From: an uncultured Paracoccaceae bacterium | Lineage (GTDB): Bacteria > Pseudomonadota > Alphaproteobacteria > Rhodobacterales > Rhodobacteraceae | DNA: 64,000 bases | Assembly: GCA_947495295.1 (NCBI GenBank) | Contig: CANLYJ010000001.1 | Span: 1,054,001-1,118,000 of the forward strand | Reading direction: 5' to 3' | Shown here: positions 16,532 to 57,634 of the stretch, piece after piece | How positions within the stretch are numbered: position 1 is the first letter of the stretch | How the letters are laid out: each line of letters begins with the position of its first letter | Program-made: the position numbers and the translations under genes | Notes under the pieces: generated by a model | The model's database searches: none | Told to the model about the DNA's origin: nothing | What the model saw: the letters and a program-made list of their open reading frames with translations, nothing else

Positions 16532-18691
16532 TCAGGCGACAGCGTTGGCAAAGGCGGACCGGAAGGTTGTGGTCAACGCGCCCAACTCCGCAGTTTCGCT
16601 GCCAAATGTGACCTGATCGCCGCCCACCTTTCCAACTGTGGCCAGCGTCACCTCTGCCCTGTTGGCAGCAATCATCAGCGCCTCTGCCTGATCGAAATTG
16701 CAGGCAATCAGATAGCGCGCCTGATCTTCACCAAAAAGCGTGGCCATATCATCGCTATCCAATGTGATGCCGATGCCTGCCTCTTCGGCCAGCTCGAAAG
16801 CGGCAAGGGCCAGCCCGCCATCGCTGAGATCGGTGCAGGCTTTGATATATGCATGATTGGCGCGGATGAAGTTGCCGTTCTTTTTCTCGACCGCAAGATC
16901 GACAGGGGGCGCGTTGCCTTCGGCTCGCCCGTAAACCTCTGCCAACAAAGCGGATTGTCCCAGATGTCCGGTCGTTTCACCGACCAGTAGCAGCACATGA
17001 CCTTCGCGGATCTGACCACCGATCACATGGTCGGGATGATCGATCAACCCCACAGCACCGATTGTTGGCGTGGGCAGGATGCCGGTCCCGTCGGTTTCGT
17101 TATAAAGCGAGACGTTGCCCGACACGATAGGCATGTCGAGCGCTTTCACCGCTTCACCGATGCCTTGGATTGCGCCGACAAATTGTCCCATGATTTCAGG
17201 CTTTTCGGGGTTGCCGAAATTCATATTGTCGGTGGTCGCAAGGGGCCGCGCGCCTACGGCTGTCAGGTTGCGATAAGCCTCTGCCACGGCCTGCTTGCCG
17301 CCTTCAACAGGGTTCGCCTTGACATAGCGGGGGGTGACATCGCTGGTAAAGGCCAGCGCCTTCTGAGTGCCATGCACCCGGACGATCCCGGCACCCCAGC
17401 CCGGTGTGCGCGCCGTGTCACCCATGACCTGTTGATCGTACTGTTCGTAAACCCATTGTTTACCAGCGTAATTCGGACTGTTTATCAATGCCTCAAGCCC
17501 GTCCATCGCGCCCACCGCAGGAATATCGCCAAGTGGTGCCGCGGTTGGCGTCGGTTCCCATGGCCGGTCATATTCGGGAGCCGAGCCAGAGAGGGTGGCC
17601 AGTGGCAGGTCGGCCATGACCTTGCCATCATGTTCGACGATGAACCGGTCTTCGGCGATGGTTTCGCCGACGATGGCAAAATCGAGATCCCATTTCTCGA
17701 AAACGGCGCGGGCCGCGTCCTCCAATTCGGGTTTCAGCACCATCAGCATCCGTTCCTGGGATTCCGACAGCATCATTTCATAGGCGGTCATGTTGTCTTC
17801 GCGTTGTGGGACGGCGTTGAGGTTGAGCCGCACGCCCAGCCCGCCCTTGTCCCCCATTTCGACGGCGGAACATGTCAGGCCAGCCGCGCCCATATCCTGG
17901 ATCGAGATGACGGCACCGGTGGCCATCAATTCCAGTGTCGCTTCCATCAGTCGCTTTTCGGTAAATGGATCGCCCACTTGTACTGTTGGCCGCTTTTCTT
18001 CGATTGTGTCATCAAATTCGGCGCTTGCCATGGTGGCGCCGCCAACCCCATCACGCCCGGTTTTTGCGCCCAGATAGACAACCGGCATGCCGATGCCGGA
18101 GGCGGCGGAATAGAAAATCTTGTCCGCGTCCGCGAGGCCGGCGGCGAAGGCGTTGACCAAGCAGTTGCCATTATAAGCCGGGTCAAAACGTACTTCGCCC
18201 CCGACGGTGGGCACGCCGAAACAATTGCCGTAGCCGCCAACACCGGCCACGACGCCATTGACGAGTTGTTTGGTTTTGGGGTGGCTGGGCTCGCCGAAGG
18301 AGAGCGAGTTCATCGCCGCAATTGGCCGCGCACCCATTGTGAAAACGTCGCGCAAAATACCGCCAACGCCGGTTGCCGCCCCCTGATAGGGTTCGATGTA
18401 GCTGGGGTGGTTATGGCTTTCCATTTTGAAAACAACGGCTTGCCCATCACCAATATCAACGACACCGGCGTTTTCGCCGGGGCCGCAGATGACCTGTGGT
18501 CCTTCGGTGGGCAGGGTGCGTAGCCATTTCTTGGAAGATTTGTAGGAGCAATGTTCGTTCCACATCGCTGAAAAGATGCCAAGTTCGGTGAAGCTGGGTT
18601 CGCGCCCGATGATCTGCAGGATCTGCTTGTACTCATTCGGGCTAAGCCCATGGGCGGCGATCAGGTCTTCGGTGATTGCTGGCTCTTGCAT
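16532..18691 (-). CDS. purL: phosphoribosylformylglycinamidine synthase subunit PurL
   Basis: 719 residues, the short PurL type that works with separate PurS and PurQ (not in the window). It converts FGAR to FGAM with ATP in purine synthesis. Motifs include [35 protein letters not shown] and [25 protein letters not shown] precedes the ATG. Its leader contains the candidate small RNA described separately; a terminator lies about 70 bp before the start codon. Confidence 0.95.
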
Positions 18692-18759
18692 CTTGTCCCC
18701 TTCGGCAGTTGCGGCCTTTTAGCGGGGCCAGCCCCGGGGGGAAAGCGTGATTTGCAAAG

Positions 18760-18838
18760 AAAAAAGCCGGGCACAAGGCCCGGCGAAGTCCAACAGGGAG
18801 GTGAGGGTGATGAGCGCTTAAGCATCATCGCCCTCGAT
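18760..18838 (-). ncRNA. candidate CcsR/cuckoo-type small RNA upstream of purL
   Basis: On the minus strand a hairpin (18833-18805, GGGCGATGA pairing with TCATCACCC around TTAA) is followed by a single-stranded stretch with the anti-Shine-Dalgarno motif CACCTCCC (18803-18796). A terminator closes it: GCCGGGC/GCCCGGC (18784-18766) and TTTTTT. The predicted RNA is about 75-80 nt. Hairpin, CCUCC motif, terminator, and an RpoH-like promoter match the layout I know for the CcsR or cuckoo family of Rhodobacter. An alternative reading is an attenuator in the purL leader. Confidence 0.55.
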
Positions 18839-18843
18839 AGATG

Positions 18844-18872
18844 AGATAGGGTGCGATATTTGACCATTCAAG
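18844..18872 (-). promoter_or_regulatory. RpoH-type promoter for the candidate sRNA
   Basis: On the minus strand CTTGAA (18872-18867), 15 bp, then CCCTATCT (18851-18844) resembles the heat-shock sigma consensus CTTGAA / CCCCATNT. It would start transcription about seven bases before the first hairpin. An overlapping housekeeping-type pair TTGTCT (18885-18880), 17 bp, CAAATA (18862-18857) would start the RNA slightly earlier. Confidence 0.45.
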
Positions 18873-19026
18873 AAAAAACAGACAATTAAGATTGCAAGGC
18901 CGATATGCGTGTGGTGCATAGCTTTTGATCACCGCACGTTTGGGTTGAGGCGGGCACTGTGCGGTGCGATTGACCAAACCGGCACCGAATCAATGTTTAA
19001 GGTCTTATTTTTATAGAAAATACGTT

Positions 19027-19064
19027 GTCGGCAAAGCGTCGGCCAAACGTCGGACTTGCGTCGG
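19027..19064. repeat. four GTCGG units at exact 11-bp spacing (intergenic)
   Basis: GTCGG occurs at 19027, 19038, 19049 and 19060, each separated by six bases, in the 459-bp gap between purL and the 689-residue gene. The remainder of that gap is AT-rich (18880-19025) with no credible open frame. An array of the same unit and spacing occurs inside the DUF1697 gene at 61141. The 11-bp period places each unit on the same face of the helix, as for a multimeric protein-binding site. Confidence 0.55.
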
Positions 19065-19150
19065 ACCCCACCGTAGGTTGCCCCCCCGGATGAACGGAGC
19101 GCGCGGTGTAGTGTGAATTTTGGGTTAAGCGCGCCCTTGTCCGATACGGC

Positions 19151-21220
19151 CTATCTGTTGGCAAAAATCTCGACCGCGCGTTCCTGGAATTTCTTTTCCT
19201 CAAACGGGTTGTCCTGCCCATAGATTTCGACCCAACCCGCAGCGTGGGATTGAACGTCGCCACCGCTGAACCGTGCAGGCTGGTCAAGGTAGAACCCGCC
19301 CGTGCCGATCAGGCAATTGCCGTATTCCGCGCGCAGCTGATCGCAGATGCGTTTCAGTTCCACCAGGAACGCGCGGCGTTCTTCGGGCGTTTGATGGGTG
19401 CGGGTTTCAACATCGTCCGGCAGGAAGGCTGACAGGAAGTCGCCGCCTTTCTGGCGTTCGACATCACCAATTGTGTAATTTGGGACATAGGCAAAATTGG
19501 CACGGATCTGAAATTCGCCTTCGCCTGAATCGCGAACGGTTACGCCGATGATTTTACATTTGGTTGCAATTTCGACGAGCGTATCGGCGCAATAGGGGGC
19601 CATTTCGCGCGGTGCCCGCATCATTGCGTAGCTGTGATGCTGTTCTTCGGGTGGCATTGCCTCGCCATTTTGCAGCAGGTCATCCAATGTCAGCCGCGTT
19701 GAAAAGCTGACCCGCCGTTCGCGGTTCAGGTCTGTCTGGCTGACCTTGCTTGCAATGTCATTGGTATCCATGATCAGATCGCCGAAACTGCGCCTTCCGC
19801 CGGAGATTTTGGAGGGTGCGGCGGTGGTTGTTTCAGCTTCTGACAGGATCATCGTTTCGGGCAGAATAGCGCGGTAGTCACCACCGGACGCGGCTGCGAC
19901 AATATCGGTGTAGATCTTGACGATTTCGGCTTCGCGCGCCTCTGGTGTGCCTGTCAGGATGATGTCATGCGCTGGCACATGGATATTTGTCACCTTTGAT
20001 GGTGCGTCGAACGGCGTTGCCGGAATATCGCCGACCAAAACGGCACTGGCGGCCCGTGCCGTGATCAGGTTTGTGTCGGCGCTGACCCCCAGGGTTTCCT
20101 TGAACCAAGTGTCAAACCGGTCGAAACCTTTATCCTGTCCAAAGAGCAGATTGCCGTCGAGCGTATTACCGCCCTTCGCCCCATCCCATGCGGCCCAGCT
20201 TTCGTCGGGTTTGCGAAAGGGCGTGGTGTTGCATTCGAAGCGGGTTCTTTCCCCGTCAATTATCACCTCTTGGCGTTGGTTTTCGTAACCTTGCACTGCC
20301 TCGAAACTCGCGGTGCCGATATTGCCTGTCAGGGCGGGGGCGCTGCTGCCGATCATCGCGATGTGGGCAATGTTCACATCGGGACCAGCGTGGATATGCC
20401 ACATCATGCGCGCGCTGCGGCTTTGTAGTGTCAGGTAAAGCGGCGCGCTGGTATCAGTGACAATGACGTCGATCACCCGCATCGTGCCACGGTGGATTTT
20501 CATCATGCCGATGCCGTGCCCGTCTTCGAGCGCTTCTTCGGTATGGTCTTCGATAGTTTTATAAATCGCGGCGTTGTCGATGATCTGGATTGGCGCATTG
20601 GCGTGGCCGGTATCGACATTGACGCTGATCAGCTTTTCATCCGCCCCGGCGGGGCGCAGCTGACAGGTTTCGTTCATGTCATAGTTATCGATGTCCCAAT
20701 GGCTGCTGTTGGGGCCGCTGGGTTGGAAACCTGCAAGGATGGTGTCGATGGCAACCGGTGTGCCGCTTTGCGTGGCGGCATGCCCGGCACCGACAATGGT
20801 TCCCATCCGGTCCATGTTGATGGGCGCGGTCGGCGCGGCGGGTCTTGCATCAAGTGGGGCGACCAGGTTTGCCTTTCGTGCGGCCTCAGCCTCGGCCAGG
20901 GTGATTTCGTGCCGATCCTCCTGGGCTTCGATCGCGGAGCCGAGCATGATGTCGTAGCCAATCCCGGATGGAATGAGTTCGCCATCGGAGATTTTTGTTG
21001 TGATTGATGCGATTTTTTCGCCGACACTGCCAAGCAGGTCGGATTTTGCCAAACCGATAGCGCCAACGCTGAGCAACATCGCCAGCCCACCGAAGAATAC
21101 GCAGCCAGCAATCAGTTTGCTGTTTCCGCCGGACTGGATTGGGCCGTCATCCTGTTGCGGCGCACCTCTTTGGCCTTCGATCCGTTTGAGACGCTCCGCG
21201 AAATCGCCGCCCTTGTTCAT
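19151..21220 (-). CDS. large single-pass membrane protein of unknown function
   Basis: 689 residues. A short charged N-terminus is followed by one transmembrane helix at about residues 36-58 (LIAGCVFFGGLAMLLSVG), and the remaining 630 residues should face the periplasm. I recognise no domain, catalytic motif or repeat. Cysteines are few and scattered (for example near MAPYCADTLVEIATKCK), which might form disulfides. The reading frame is intact and codon use matches its neighbours. It is a lone gene between purL and a LysR gene, with no shared operon evidence. Likely a lineage-specific conserved hypothetical. Confidence 0.75.
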   Translation of the reverse strand: MNKGGDFAERLKRIEGQRGAPQQDDGPIQSGGNSKLIAGCVFFGGLAMLLSVGAIGLAKSDLLGSVGEKIASITTKISDGELIPSGIGYDIMLGSAIEAQEDRHEITLAEAEAARKANLVAPLDARPAAPTAPINMDRMGTIVGAGHAATQSGTPVAIDTILAGFQPSGPNSSHWDIDNYDMNETCQLRPAGADEKLISVNVDTGHANAPIQIIDNAAIYKTIEDHTEEALEDGHGIGMMKIHRGTMRVIDVIVTDTSAPLYLTLQSRSARMMWHIHAGPDVNIAHIAMIGSSAPALTGNIGTASFEAVQGYENQRQEVIIDGERTRFECNTTPFRKPDESWAAWDGAKGGNTLDGNLLFGQDKGFDRFDTWFKETLGVSADTNLITARAASAVLVGDIPATPFDAPSKVTNIHVPAHDIILTGTPEAREAEIVKIYTDIVAAASGGDYRAILPETMILSEAETTTAAPSKISGGRRSFGDLIMDTNDIASKVSQTDLNRERRVSFSTRLTLDDLLQNGEAMPPEEQHHSYAMMRAPREMAPYCADTLVEIATKCKIIGVTVRDSGEGEFQIRANFAYVPNYTIGDVERQKGGDFLSAFLPDDVETRTHQTPEERRAFLVELKRICDQLRAEYGNCLIGTGGFYLDQPARFSGGDVQSHAAGWVEIYGQDNPFEEKKFQERAVEIFANR

Positions 21221-21328: not shown

Positions 21329-22234
21329 TCACGGCAGGGTTGTTTCCCTGATCTTGCGCCTGTGGGCAAAGATTTCTTCTTGCACGAAATCCCGGAACGC
21401 GCTGATCCGTTTGGATTGCCGCAATTCTTCGGGATAGGCGAGGAAAACGGGGACTTCGCCGGATTCCAGGTCCGGCAGGATGCGCACCAGATCCGGAAAA
21501 TCCTCGGTCACGTAGTCGGGCAGGACGCCGACGCCGATATTGTTCAGGATGCCCTGTAGCACGCCAAAGTAGTTGTTGACCGTGAACAGGTTCGGGATGT
21601 CATAGGTCATCAGGTGCTGTACCAGTGTCGCCCCGGCGGCAACCTGGATCGAATTGAGGCTTTGGCAGATCAGCCGGTGATTGCTGATTTCTTCGATATC
21701 GTTGATCTGTCCGTTTTTTTGCAAGTATTCGCGGGACGCATAAAGCCGCATCCGCACCGACATCAGCCGTTTGCGGATCAGGTCGGCCTGTGACGGTTCT
21801 TTCATACGGATTGCGACATCTGCCTCGCGCATGGGCAGGTCCAGCACCCGTTCTTCGAGCATCAGATCGATTTTCAGGTCCGGATATTGTTCGTAAAGCT
21901 TGGGCAGTCGCGGGGCGAGCCAGAGCGTGCCGAAACCGGTGGTCGTGGTGACGCGCAATTCGCCGAACACTTCCTCTTCACTGTCGCGAATGCGGGCGGA
22001 GGCAGCCTCTAGCCGTTTGTTCATGGATTTGGTGGCATCGAACAGCAACTCGCCCTGTTCGGTCAGGATCAGCCCGCGCGCGTGTCTGTGAAACAGCGTG
22101 GTGTTCAGTGATTCTTCGAGTGCCCGGATTTGCCGTGACACAGCAGATTGCGACAAATGCAGCGTGTCACCTGCATGGGTGAGCGATCCGGCGTCAGCGA
22201 CGGCGTGAAATATTCTTAGTTTGTCCCAGTCCAT
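21329..22234 (-). CDS. LysR-family transcriptional regulator
   Basis: 301 residues with the winged helix MDWDKLRIFHAVADAGSLTH and HLSQSAVSRQIRALEESLNT, followed by the effector domain. The start is the ATG at 22234. It is divergent from the IorAB fusion gene, whose 160-bp upstream region holds two inverted repeats, so autoregulation and control of ior are possible. The sequence belongs to a subgroup common in Rhodobacterales beside varied genes, so the regulatory target is not certain. Confidence 0.85.
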   Translation of the reverse strand: MDWDKLRIFHAVADAGSLTHAGDTLHLSQSAVSRQIRALEESLNTTLFHRHARGLILTEQGELLFDATKSMNKRLEAASARIRDSEEEVFGELRVTTTTGFGTLWLAPRLPKLYEQYPDLKIDLMLEERVLDLPMREADVAIRMKEPSQADLIRKRLMSVRMRLYASREYLQKNGQINDIEEISNHRLICQSLNSIQVAAGATLVQHLMTYDIPNLFTVNNYFGVLQGILNNIGVGVLPDYVTEDFPDLVRILPDLESGEVPVFLAYPEELRQSKRISAFRDFVQEEIFAHRRKIRETTLP

Positions 22235-22333: not shown

Positions 22334-22377
22334 TAGGTCAGTATTTTTGACCTATAGTTACGTCAAGTGATTTGACG
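22334..22377. promoter_or_regulatory. two inverted repeats upstream of the IorAB gene
   Basis: TAGGTCA-N7-TGACCTA (22334-22354) is a perfect seven-base inverted repeat. CGTCAA-N5-TTGACG (22361-22377) is a perfect six-base one. They lie 16-60 bp before the IorAB start codon and share the GTCA core. This is consistent with tandem dimer sites of a regulator; the adjacent LysR protein is one candidate. Confidence 0.45.
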
Positions 22378-22393: not shown

Positions 22394-25300
22394 ATGACCC
22401 ATCAAGATGTATCCCTAAACGACCGGTATGACCTTGAGAAATCGCCTGTTTTGCTGAATGGCACGCAGGCGCTGGTCCGGTTGATGCTGATGCAGCGCGC
22501 GCGGGATGCAAAGGCAGGGCTGAATACCGGCGGCTATGTCACGGGTTATCGCGGGTCCCCTTTGGGCGCTGTCGACCAGCAGATGACCCGCGCCAAGGAT
22601 GTTTTGGACCCCGCGCAGGTCCAGTTTCAACTGGGATTGAACGAGGATCTCGCGGCGACTGCCCTGTGGGGATCGCAGCAGGCCGAATTGCGCGGTGAGG
22701 GCAAGTATGACGGTGTCTTTGGCCTGTGGTATGGCAAGGGCCCCGGCGTCGACCGCACCGGTGATGTCATGCGCCATGCCAATATGGCAGGCACCAGCCC
22801 GCATGGCGGGGTGATCATGGCGATGGGCGATGATCATACCGGCGAAAGTTCTACCACATTGCACCAGTCTGATTGGGCCATGGTCGATGCCTATATGCCG
22901 ATCGTGTCGCCGGCCGGTGTGCAAGAGATTTTGGATTACGGCCTATATGCCTGGGAATTGTCGCGCTACGCAGGCGTCTGGGTTGGGCTGAAGACGATGA
23001 AGGACACGATTGAGGTCACATCAGTCGTTGATGGTGATCCGCATCGATTGTCATTTGTGAAGCCCGATATGGAATTGCCCGAGGGTGGATTGAACATTCG
23101 TCTGGTTGATACGCCGCAGCTGCAGGAAGCGCGGATGATTGACCATAAACGCTTTGCCGCTGAGGCGTTTTCGCGCGCCAACAAGATGGATCACCGCAAA
23201 TGGGGCAAGCCGGGGGCCAAAGTGGGTTTTGTCGCCGCTGGCAAGAACTGGCTGGATTTGCAGCATGCCCTGTCGCTGTTGAATATTGATGCGACTGAGG
23301 CGGAGCGGTTGGGCATCACTACCTATAAGGTAGGCCAGGTTTGGCCGCTGGACATGATGTCATTCCATGAATGGGCGGAAGGGCTGGACCTGATTGTTGT
23401 CGTTGAGGAAAAGCGCAAGCTGATCGAGGTGCAGGTCAAAGAAGCGATCTTTGATGATCGTCGTGGTCGCCGTGTTTATGGGTGGCATAAGGGCGATGAG
23501 CATTCTGAAGGCCGCCGGGAGGAGGTATTTCCGACCAAGGCCGCCCTTGACCCGATCTGGATTGCCGAAAAGGTTGGCGGGATTTTGGTGGAAGAGGGCT
23601 GCGCATCCGATGGTGTGCAGGCCGGGCTGGTCGCATTGTCAGAAGCGCGCCGCGCCGACAATGCGCCCGAGATCGCGGCGCGTTTGCCCTATTTCTGTTC
23701 AGGCTGTCCGCATAATTCATCAACCAAAGTGCCAGAAGGGTCCCGCGCCTATGCCGGGATCGGCTGCCATTACATGGTGCAGTGGATGGATCGGGACACG
23801 GTTGGCTTTACCCAGATGGGTGGCGAGGGGGCCAATTGGGTCGGCGAGGCCCCGTTTTCTACCCGCGACCATGTGTTTCAGAACTTGGGCGATGGCACCT
23901 ACAACCATTCCGGCGTGCAGGCCATTCGGTTCGCGCTGATGGCAGGCACGAATATCACCTACAAAATCCTGTATAATGACGCGGTCGCGATGACCGGCGG
24001 GCAGGGCAATGATGGGGGCCTAACCGCTGATCAGATTTGCCGCGAGTTGCAGGCCATGGGCGTGCGCAATGTCGCACTTGTCTATGATGAGAAGGAAGAT
24101 GTTGATCTGGCCCGGTTCCCGAAGGGATTGGATGTGCATGAGCGGGCAGACATGCCTGCGGTGCAGGAGAAATTCAGCAAATACAAAGGCGTGTCAGCCA
24201 TTGTGTATGTGCAGACCTGTGCGGCTGAAAAGCGTCGTCGCCGTAAACGCGGCCAGTTTCCTGATCCTGACAAGCGCGTCTTTATCAACACGGATGTCTG
24301 TGAAGGCTGCGGCGATTGCGGTGTGCAGTCGAACTGCGTGTCGATTGTCCCGGTTGAAACGGAACTGGGCCGCAAGCGGGCGATTGATCAATCGTCCTGC
24401 AACAAGGATTTTTCCTGTGTGAACGGGTTCTGCCCGTCATTTGTCACGATTGAGGGGGCGCAAATCCGCAAGGAGGCGACGGCGGATGTCGACCTACCGG
24501 ATATGCCGGACCCGGAACTGCCGGTGATTGAGGGCACGCATAACGTGGTGATCACCGGCGTCGGTGGCACGGGTGTTGTAACGATTGGTGCCGTGATGGC
24601 GATGGCCGCCCATATGGATGGCAAAGGTGCGGGCATGATGGAGATGGCCGGGCTGGCCCAAAAGGGTGGCGCAGTGCATATCCATTGCCGGATTGCGGAG
24701 GAGCCGGGTGATATCAGCGCGATCCGGGTTGCGACCGGTGAATGTGATGCGCTGATTGGTGGTGATCTGGTTGTCAGCGCTGGGGCCAAGACGATCGGGC
24801 TGATGAAAACCGGGCGCACGAAAGGTGTTGTGAATAGCCACGAGATTATCACCGGTGATTTCACCCGGAATACCGAGTTCAAGCTGCCGAGCGATCAGTT
24901 GCAGGTGGCCTTGCAGGCGCGTCTGGGTGAGGGGCTTGCGCTTTTTGATGCCTCTGATCTGGCCAAGGCGCTGCTGGGCGACAGTATTTATTCCAACATG
25001 ATGATCTTTGGCGCGGTTTGGCAGATGGGGGCGATCCCGCTGAGCTATGAAGCGATTATTGGCGCGATTGAGCTGAATGGCGCTGCTGTGAACCGCAATA
25101 TTCGCGCGTTCGAATTGGGGCGGTGGGCGTATCTGCACCCCAAGGATGCAGCCGCACTTTTGACCCCGAATGTGGTGCAATTGCCCAAATCGCTGGATGA
25201 GAAGATCGCGTTTCGTGAGGCGCGATTGGTGGATTATCAGGGCAAGCGATTGGCCAAACGCTATCGCAAGCTGGTCGATCAGTTTCAGGATGCACCTTTG

Positions 25301-34344: not shown

Positions 34345-34504
34345 GGTCTGGCCTTTCGTTAGGTGTGCCGGACCCGCTGATCGGGGTGATGGTCGCCCTT
34401 GTCGTCCGGCTGAAAAAGGTCAGCTTTCCGGATTTGCCAATGTCAGGTTTAGCGTGACCCATTGGGGCCGACGACGCCTTGGTGAACTGATGACCAGAGG
34501 CTGC

Positions 34505-56538: not shown

Positions 56539-57584
56539 GCTGTGTTCCTTTGATAGTGTTTTTCGAGGTCGATCAGTTGTCTTTTGCGCCAGAGCCCGCC
56601 GCCATAGCCTGTTAGCGATCCATCGGCCCCCAGCACCCGGTGGCACGGAATGATCAGGGCGATCTGGTTGGCCCCATTGGCCCGGGCCACGGCCCGTGTC
56701 GCTTGCGGTCTGCCAAGGATACACGCCAGATCACTGTAGCTGCGGGTTGTTCCCGCCGGGATATTGCGCAAGGCCGTCCAGACGTCTTTGGTGAATGGGC
56801 TGCCATGCAGTGTCAGGGGGATGTCGAACCGGTCGCAGTCGCCGCCAAAATAGCGTTGCAAGGCGGTTTCCACCTGATCGGTGATCCCAGACCGCCCGAT
56901 GCCAATCTGGCCTTTGGTGGCTTTGCGCAGCCGTTGTAACTCTTTGGGCAATGCCTTGCGATCCGCAAATTCCAGCAAGTGCAGGCTGCGCTGATCGCAA
57001 ACCGCGATCATCGGCCCCATTGGCGTGTTGATGTGATCGGCAAGCAGGAGCGCATCCTTGGCAAAGCTGCCGGGTGCCATGCCCATCAGTTTGGCAAAAC
57101 CCGCCCGAAACGCTGACGGGCTGTCAAAGCCCGCGTCAAGCTGCGCGTCAATCACTTTGCCGGATTTGAGCGTTGTGAACCCATGTGTCAGCCGCCGTTG
57201 CCGCGCCATTTCGAGGAATGTCATCCCGAAGCTGCGCTTGAACGCGCGTCTGATTGTCGAGGGATCATGCCCCATCGCGGTGATATCGGTTTCCGACCAG
57301 CGCCGCGTTGGCTGCTGATCCAGCGCATCAACCAAGGCCCTGATCGCAGGGTCGGGTTGCGCGAGCGGTTGGCATCGTTTGCAAGGTCTGAAACCGGCCG
57401 CAATGCATGCGCCTGCGTCTTCGAAGAACACGCAGTTTTCCTGTTTTGGTTTGCGGGCGGGGCAGGTCAGCCGACAGAACACACCGGTGGAGCGCACGCC
57501 AACATAGGCTCGCCCGTCATAGCTGGCGTCCCGTGCCAGAAGTGCTGCATAAAGCGTGGTATCGTCAGGTAGGTCAAAGAACAT
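56535..57584 (-). CDS. ada: bifunctional DNA repair methyltransferase/activator Ada
   Basis: 349 residues. The N-terminal zinc domain has four cysteines (GVFCRLTCPA, ENCVFF and FRPCKRCQP), then an AraC-type helix-turn-helix (SPSAFRAGFAKLMG), and the C-terminal O6-alkylguanine transferase with IPCHRVLGADGSLTGYGGG. It repairs methylphosphotriesters and O6-methylguanine and activates the adaptive response. I did not find a clear Ada box upstream. Confidence 0.93.
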   Translation of the reverse strand: MFFDLPDDTTLYAALLARDASYDGRAYVGVRSTGVFCRLTCPARKPKQENCVFFEDAGACIAAGFRPCKRCQPLAQPDPAIRALVDALDQQPTRRWSETDITAMGHDPSTIRRAFKRSFGMTFLEMARQRRLTHGFTTLKSGKVIDAQLDAGFDSPSAFRAGFAKLMGMAPGSFAKDALLLADHINTPMGPMIAVCDQRSLHLLEFADRKALPKELQRLRKATKGQIGIGRSGITDQVETALQRYFGGDCDRFDIPLTLHGSPFTKDVWTALRNIPAGTTRSYSDLACILGRPQATRAVARANGANQIALIIPCHRVLGADGSLTGYGGGLWRKRQLIDLEKHYQRNTA

Positions 57585-57634
57585 GACCTACCTATAGTCC
57601 GATTCTGGGGAGCGTGCCGCCGGAAATCGGGCGT

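Follow-up and report, generated by a model that had tools for sequence, protein, structure and literature searches.

A SorY-type small RNA upstream of purL in a Paracoccaceae bacterium, with a candidate LsrB box upstream of its RpoH-type promoter

In the window, by which we mean the whole stretch of 64,000 nucleotides of an uncultured Paracoccaceae bacterium analysed here, the minus strand carries at 18757–18837 a predicted small RNA that is the positional ortholog of SorY from Rhodobacter sphaeroides. We think it quite probable that this SorY-type RNA of ~80 nt is started by RpoH at ~18837, ends at its own terminator and has a probable second input from the regulator LsrB, with silencing of uptake through Hfq and an anti-Shine-Dalgarno (aSD) core as the expected outcome. 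That the SorY of R. sphaeroides would behave similarly in this organism, that LsrB would act at SorY and that the targets here would be of this kind, we infer. As an RNA the finding is modest, being an ortholog of the known SorY that is missed by the Rfam SorY model. What may be new is an LsrB box that links SorY to the AbcR locus, together with a promoter joining LsrB and RpoH input. The photo-oxidative stress small RNAs of Rhodobacter and the LsrB/VtlR–AbcR circuit of symbionts and related bacteria appear to occupy the same locus; SorY gains a candidate regulator, LsrB would gain a sharper box (ATGC-N7-GCAT-N3-[TG]G-N3-T), and an LsrB-linked transporter-silencing RNA is predicted for many Alphaproteobacteria in which no such RNA scored above an Rfam cut-off.

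A structured RNA with a predicted promoter of its own

A preliminary description of this DNA had proposed a GATGA/TCATC hairpin, an aSD stretch and a terminator in that order on the minus strand, and this layout is indeed present. The 5' hairpin, with GATGA/TCATC inside it, lies at 18835–18803, as supported by the fold and by counting pairs across 30 of the 32 genus rows. It is followed directly by the aSD core ACCTCCCTGTTGGACT at 18802–18787, which contains CACCTCCC if the preceding C is counted, and then by a Rho-independent terminator at 18784–18757, made up of a hairpin (18784–18766) and a T run. Read along the minus strand, the full order is an ATGC-N7-GCAT dyad, CTTGAA, CCCTATCT, the hairpin, the core, the terminator and then purL from 18691 (16532–18691, minus strand; NCBIfam PurL, 973.6 bits). 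Folding, which had been suggested as a check, gave −35.7 kcal/mol for the window RNA against −21.3 ± 3.0 for 200 shuffled sequences (z = −4.76), none of which folded as well. When all Rfam families were searched with Infernal, the SorX model (RF02784) matched 18842–18759 on the minus strand at 54.7 bits (cut-off 46.6; E = 1.5e-10), so that a chance origin of the structured RNA can be discounted. The CCTCCCTG stretch has a mean unpaired probability of 0.75 in the window RNA and of 0.71 over 48 loci, the lowest being 0.29. Taken together, layout, fold and model score confirm the observation at 18760–18872.

The element described as a promoter just before the RNA, CTTGAA-N15, is found at 18872–18844 (minus strand): CTTGAA at 18872–18867, 15 bases, then CCCTATCT at 18851–18844. 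The predicted 5' end, 18837, falls 7 bases past this putative −10 element and was transferred from the published 5' end of SorY. The pattern CTTGA[AT]-N15-NNNTANNT is present in all but one of the 32 genus rows (31); of the 48 family rows it fits 41 and fails in seven, against 0.03 occurrences expected from mononucleotide shuffles of the family rows. In R. sphaeroides, SorY is reported to depend on RpoHI/RpoHII (PMC5036791) and to begin at its own promoter (PMC6238624). At the level of motif and conservation, then, the window locus has an RpoHI/RpoHII-type promoter of its own, and the layout and the SorX score are consistent with the proposed discrete, stress-type small RNA upstream of purL.

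Conservation was followed at two depths. Among the matches listed within the genus, 32 candidate loci were fetched, of which 31 are of the window type; one (L077) is of an ompR type and was dropped, and at another (L023) the core is absent near the middle of the locus. Of the 31, 28 have a lysR gene within 1 kb upstream and 25 have purL no further than about 1 kb downstream. With the window included (32 rows), the core is present throughout, and the dyad is exact in 17 rows and within one mismatch in all 32. Pairing was scored on 30 of these rows, leaving out L066, which is close to L065, and the divergent L082. It is kept in 90.8% of cells over both helices and in 85.9% of those in hairpin 1, as compared with 35–46% for a slid-structure control. 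Five pairs have changed on both sides, a number reached by 7 of 500 shuffles. The covariation in hairpin 1 is modest, and the terminator stem is invariant in all 30 rows.

At family level, 49 loci were compared, one per genus, comprising the best-scoring LysR matches of 190 matching genomes plus the R. sphaeroides genome introduced below. In 46 of them, no more than 262 nt separate the LysR gene from the core downstream; the exceptions are L219 (core 1.2 kb away), L215 (none within 1.5 kb) and the window itself, where a 689-aa gene is inserted. The 48 family rows used above are the 47 loci with a core plus the window, so the core is present in 47 of 47 by selection. The start of purL is found up to 2.9 kb after lysR, or outside the stretch fetched.

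The RNA is SorY by position

At E ≤ 0.001 a SorX-type match was found in 56 of 56 genus genomes (54 over the cut-off) and in 188 of 198 family genomes (157 over). The window genome (4.27 Mb in 21 contigs) has three. One, at C2:546833–546905 (76.3 bits), directly follows a gene for an ompR-type response regulator (L001), and the second is the window RNA, which is a single copy at its locus. The third is weaker (31.7 bits, below the cut-off) and lies at L003:1501–1560 (C1:1616838–1616897), between genes that from their sequence we name herA-like and ialB-like; it recurs in the genus, in eight fetched loci (L095–L102), all with herA and/or ialB. The aSD core is common to all three.

Which of the known RNAs the window copy represents was judged by comparison with R. 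sphaeroides. We take one of the genomes searched (G051) to be strain 2.4.1, since its coordinates agree with the published 5' ends of SorX and SorY, 2,598,224 and 1,632,642 respectively (PMC6238624). Its best SorX match lies at C4:2598225–2598299; its LysR ortholog is at C4:1631580–1632461 and its purL at 1632919, with the published SorY 5' end in between. That 5' end corresponds to L249:2143, 7 bases after the CCCTAAAT of a CTTGAA-N15-CCCTAAAT promoter. Thus the two loci share the order lysR–sRNA–purL (interrupted in the window genome by the 689-aa gene), the promoter (CTTGAA-N15-CCCTA), the core ACCTCCCTGTTGGACTT, and a hairpin and terminator. Since locus order and promoter are the same, and the published 5' end transfers to 18837, the window RNA is the positional ortholog of SorY (RSs1543; RF02651), despite its better score with the SorX model.

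The two RNAs do differ in the sequence of the 5' hairpin, and the window RNA is not a SorY member by the Rfam cut-off (35.6 bits, far under the required 111), whereas the R. sphaeroides stretch scores 115 bits. We treat the SorY model as narrow because the RNA that follows the LysR ortholog of Paracoccus denitrificans also falls below its cut-off, at 57.7 bits. With the SorX model the R. sphaeroides SorY stretch reaches 43.6 bits, just below the cut-off, and the two models belong to no clan. SorX itself (RSs2461) resembles the window RNA in core and fold. It differs in being the 3' end of the ompR-1 mRNA, from which it is reported to be cut by RNase E (PMC6238624), and the ompR-linked copy of the window genome is a separate one. 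The genes upstream of the window RNA are instead the 689-aa ORF and lysR, and orthology with SorX was rejected on position, though the SorX model scores best. Similarity to MmgR (suhB, RF00519) is weak, at 21.4 bits against a cut-off of 41.

The upstream regulator is an ortholog of LsrB/VtlR

As the preliminary description had stated, no DUF1127 gene lies directly upstream. What is found there is the 689-aa ORF (19151–21220, minus strand), for which there was no Pfam or NCBIfam match, and eight small ORFs of at least 25 aa overlapping 18860–19150, for which there was no Pfam match. The 689-aa gene separates lsrB from sorY in the window genome and in one relative (G247, L083) among the 31 genus loci. 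The neighbour that matters is the LysR gene beyond it, with its DNA box.

This gene (21329–22234, minus strand) encodes a protein with the Pfam domains HTH_1 and LysR_substrate. Its best PDB match is 9hh1_A (E = 1.1e-70; the next LysR protein, 8.4e-29), an entry titled only as LysR family, which we take to be LsrB because its cysteines stand where those of Agrobacterium tumefaciens LsrB are reported (PMC11975290). It is 38.9% identical to the Sinorhizobium meliloti LysR protein encoded at an lrp–trxB–lysR–ar15–ar15–arsR locus, and the two share the recognition-helix stretch LSQSAxSRQ of the DNA-binding domain. In the S. meliloti record the gap between lysR and arsR holds two ar15 (AbcR) RNAs, whose scores of 110.2 and 106.5 bits also served as positive control for the ar15 model; the arrangement reported for A. 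tumefaciens is trxB–vtlR–abcR1–abcR2–arsR (PMC7486931). Neither of the two cysteines described as conserved in LsrB occurs in any of the 50 family rows, one of which duplicates the window, and in 68 loci from elsewhere in the class the two columns hold Cys in 6 and 0 rows. Since both reported cysteines are missing, redox sensing by LsrB may not be transferable to the Rhodobacteraceae, to judge from these alignments. The Rhodobacteraceae proteins have a conserved cysteine of their own, Cys190, in 46 of 50 family rows.

A conserved dyad that encloses the published LsrB/VtlR box at S. meliloti abcR1

Upstream of the promoter, beginning 23 bases beyond the upstream limit of the segment first described, lies the candidate LsrB/VtlR-type box ATGC-ACCACAC-GCAT-ATC-GG-CCT-TG (18919–18895, minus strand; about −82 to −58), with a T-N11-A dyad, ATGC-ACCACAC-GCAT, at 18919–18905. 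The window site is the sole mismatch-free match to GCYATGC-N7-RCATANCGG in the 21 contigs of the genome. In the family the dyad is exact in 36 of 48 rows and within one mismatch in all 48, where mononucleotide shuffles predict 0.085 and 2.1 respectively.

The box proposed for VtlR in A. tumefaciens and Brucella abortus is GCAT-N3-TG-N3-T (PMC7486931). A match to it at −61 to −49 of S. meliloti abcR1 is reported, in a promoter that LsrB binds in gel shifts, that needs LsrB, and whose activity falls more than 22-fold when the motif region is lost (PMC8844928); at nfeR1, LsrB is reported to act at −72 to −57 (PMC10746234). We find that the sequence upstream of S. meliloti abcR1 reads ATGC-GCAAACG-GCAT-GGC-TG-TCA-T, an exact dyad that encloses the published VtlR box. 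By sequence, therefore, the dyad and the published LsrB/VtlR box are one element, with the Rhodobacteraceae form reading GG where the published box has TG.

The association extends well beyond the family. From 142 genomes searched outside it, 59 of which gave no match, we took the 68 best-scoring of 81 with a LysR match. In 34 of these 68 loci the 400 nt that follow the LsrB ortholog hold an exact dyad, and in 50 they hold one with at most one mismatch, leaving 34 and 18 loci, respectively, that lack it. Control stretches of 400 nt from the lysR coding sequence gave none exact and five with one mismatch, and shuffles 0.35 and 8.35. In 29 of the 34 loci with an exact dyad, an aSD motif is found downstream, with a terminator-like hairpin and a T run no more than 85 nt after that motif.

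Autoregulation of LsrB through the same box was considered and ruled out, since in all 30 loci examined the 220 nt before lysR hold no match to a strict form of the box on either strand. Another dyad, TAGGTCA-N7-TGACCTA, stands at 22334–22354, between lysR and a divergent gene at 22394, and upstream of lysR in most of L210–L238 and L249; it is possibly a self-regulation site or an operator of the divergent gene. The same pattern also occurs at 57570–57590 of the window.

SorY and AbcR1

The window RNA resembles AbcR1 and AbcR2 of the Rhizobiales (ar15, RF02345) in its position after an lsrB/vtlR gene with ATGC-N7-GCAT, allowing for GG in place of TG and for the gene inserted in the window genome, and as an aSD small RNA of the kind reported to act on transporter mRNAs (PMC8844928, PMC7486931). 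It differs in that the AbcR RNAs have two aSD motifs and the window RNA one, with none in the loop of hairpin 1. Furthermore, the window copy with its LsrB box also has an RpoH-type promoter, while in S. meliloti LsrB is reported to act on AbcR1 and RpoH1 on AbcR2 (PMC8844928). The ar15 family is absent among the Rfam matches of the window RNA up to E = 10. Since SorY differs in its 5' hairpin and carries a single aSD motif, we do not count it as an ar15 member.

In 38 of the 50 class loci with a dyad (at most one mismatch), the dyad is followed by CCTCCCTG, usually in the form ACGTCTCCCAGACGTGAAGCCTCCCTGTTnAACTT with a terminator behind it. In many of these RNAs the hairpin loop reads CUCCCA, which is the M1 motif reported for AbcR (PMC5461406). 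SorY aligns with the class RNAs through the second motif and the terminator, and its 5' hairpin differs. In one set of 20 class loci there was no Rfam match at the cut-off; in a second set of 20, which added 12 new loci and was read at E ≤ 0.05, the sole match above its cut-off was a tRNA, and SorX scored 25.9–42 bits. Candidate aSD small RNAs after an LsrB ortholog are thus seen in many alphaproteobacterial families (L340–L407), and among the 32 loci, out of these 68, that were compared with Rfam, no small RNA family reached its cut-off.

These results suggest, as a likely reading, that SorY and AbcR1 descend from one ancestral locus for an aSD small RNA with an LsrB box, present across much of the Alphaproteobacteria. 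In such a scheme a single RNA of the Rhodobacteraceae, with the box in front of its RpoH-type promoter, would join the inputs that S. meliloti splits between two, the aSD motif of the loop would be missing from it, the class RNAs would form a group not yet in Rfam and the SorX copies would be offshoots. Because the dyad at abcR1 contains the published box, we place SorY at the AbcR1 locus, probably under joint LsrB and RpoH input. Common descent of the SorY and AbcR loci is likely and falls short of proof, since the core is short and aSD motifs can converge. We found no relevant paper in the open-licence literature that joins SorY and AbcR.

Proposed mechanism and candidate targets

We propose that an RpoH-type sigma factor would start the SorY-type RNA near 18837, and that its own terminator would end it. 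The LsrB/VtlR ortholog probably binds ATGC-N7-GCAT at about −82 to −58, and metabolic or redox state would in this way act as a second input alongside stress sensed through RpoH. The RNA would bind Hfq, its ACCUCCCUGUUGGACU core would cover the ribosome-binding sites of transporter and metabolic mRNAs, and uptake would be lowered under stress.

In R. sphaeroides, SorY is reported to co-precipitate with Hfq, to act on takP and to limit malate import. The R. sphaeroides core pairs with the start region of takP at −25.8 kcal/mol, over a longer stretch than was used for the background. With the window core and a stretch of background length, the takP pairing is −22.8 kcal/mol, no better than the best of the background (−22.7; mean −15.2, sd 3.6), which consisted of 45 window ORFs of at least 230 aa, not all of them real genes. 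The first 60 residues of the takP product match PDB 2hzk (E = 7.1e-32), which was deposited as SmoM and which we take to be TakP. No close ortholog of takP, the known target of SorY in R. sphaeroides, was seen among the DctP-type proteins found in the window genome (best 32.6 and 34.4%).

The pattern GTCC-N1-4-AGGGAGG has nine sites in the R. sphaeroides genome, SorY included. Of the eight outside SorY, four stand 4–8 nt ahead of solute-binding protein genes (three identified through Pfam, and takP through PDB), one lies before a 261-aa ORF, and three are without an ORF of note. Since the reversed pattern gives eight matches, equal to the non-SorY sites, the sites are no more numerous than chance would give, and what is notable is solely where they lie. 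mRNAs of solute-binding proteins are the target class known for AbcR (PMC8844928). In the window genome the pattern has five sites (reversed, two), none of them before a recognised transporter gene: three are the small RNA copies and two are at no convincing start. Searching with a 16-nt complement and up to three mismatches gave no excess over the reversed sequence in either genome (21 versus 30 in the window genome; 20 versus 20 in R. sphaeroides). The broader pattern ACARGGAGG-N3-10-ATG has 11 sites in the window genome (reversed, two), two of which are small RNA copies, and 17 in R. sphaeroides (reversed, one); 5 of 9 and 2 of 17 of the proteins concerned, respectively, were compared with Pfam. 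The proteins typed in this way in the window genome include an NMT1-type protein (L415), a sulphur transporter (L433), an IclR regulator, a nitrate reductase beta subunit and a universal stress protein. Because this pattern favours Shine-Dalgarno sites in front of an ATG, we regard these sites as leads only.

Alternative explanations

The alternative that deserves most attention is that a regulator other than LsrB binds the dyad, leaving SorY as an RNA under RpoH alone. It is common for a LysR protein to act at the divergent promoter of its own gene, and the TAGGTCA-N7-TGACCTA dyad before lsrB would be a rival LsrB site. The 689-aa gene between lsrB and the box in the window genome, and the GG in place of TG, would also fit. 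However, the dyad tracks lsrB across the class, with an exact copy in half of the 68 loci; it encloses the published box at abcR1 of S. meliloti, in DNA reported to be bound by LsrB in gel shifts (PMC8844928); and the DNA-reading helix is conserved. We therefore consider the involvement of another regulator unlikely and prefer LsrB as the second input to SorY. It is very improbable that the RNA is derived from a 3' UTR, being processed out of the upstream gene's mRNA as SorX is reported to be out of that of ompR-1 (PMC6238624). Such an origin would agree with the score over the SorX cut-off and with the position of the RNA downstream of lysR in most relatives. Against it stand the conserved promoter of its own, 7 bases before the expected 5' end, the presence of the ompR-linked copy at another locus of the window genome, and the report that R. 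sphaeroides SorY starts at its own promoter (PMC6238624).

The position upstream of purL, seen in this genome as in 25 of the 31 genus loci, might instead point to a cis-acting leader or attenuator of that gene. Yet the RNA stays with lysR in 46 of 49 family loci while purL moves up to 2.9 kb away, and its core is common to the ompR-linked and third copies, which makes a purL leader very improbable indeed. The CcsR/cuckoo family was the assignment first proposed. The CcsR1–4/cuckoo RNAs carry an aSD motif, and in RpoH dependence and stress role they are like what is predicted for the window RNA. They are reported to go with a DUF1127 partner, to form an array of four and to be processed from the ccaF1 transcript (PMC8625941, PMC10253847), whereas the window RNA is a single copy at a locus that is SorY by position, there is no DUF1127 match among the upstream ORFs, and the Rfam search, read up to E = 10, brought up no CcsR/cuckoo family. 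Membership of that family was accordingly rejected, and we find it barely credible.

Another RNA element in the window

Elsewhere in the window, at 34441–34496 on the minus strand, there is a match to the Rfam COG3860 cis-regulatory RNA motif, at 58.6 bits.
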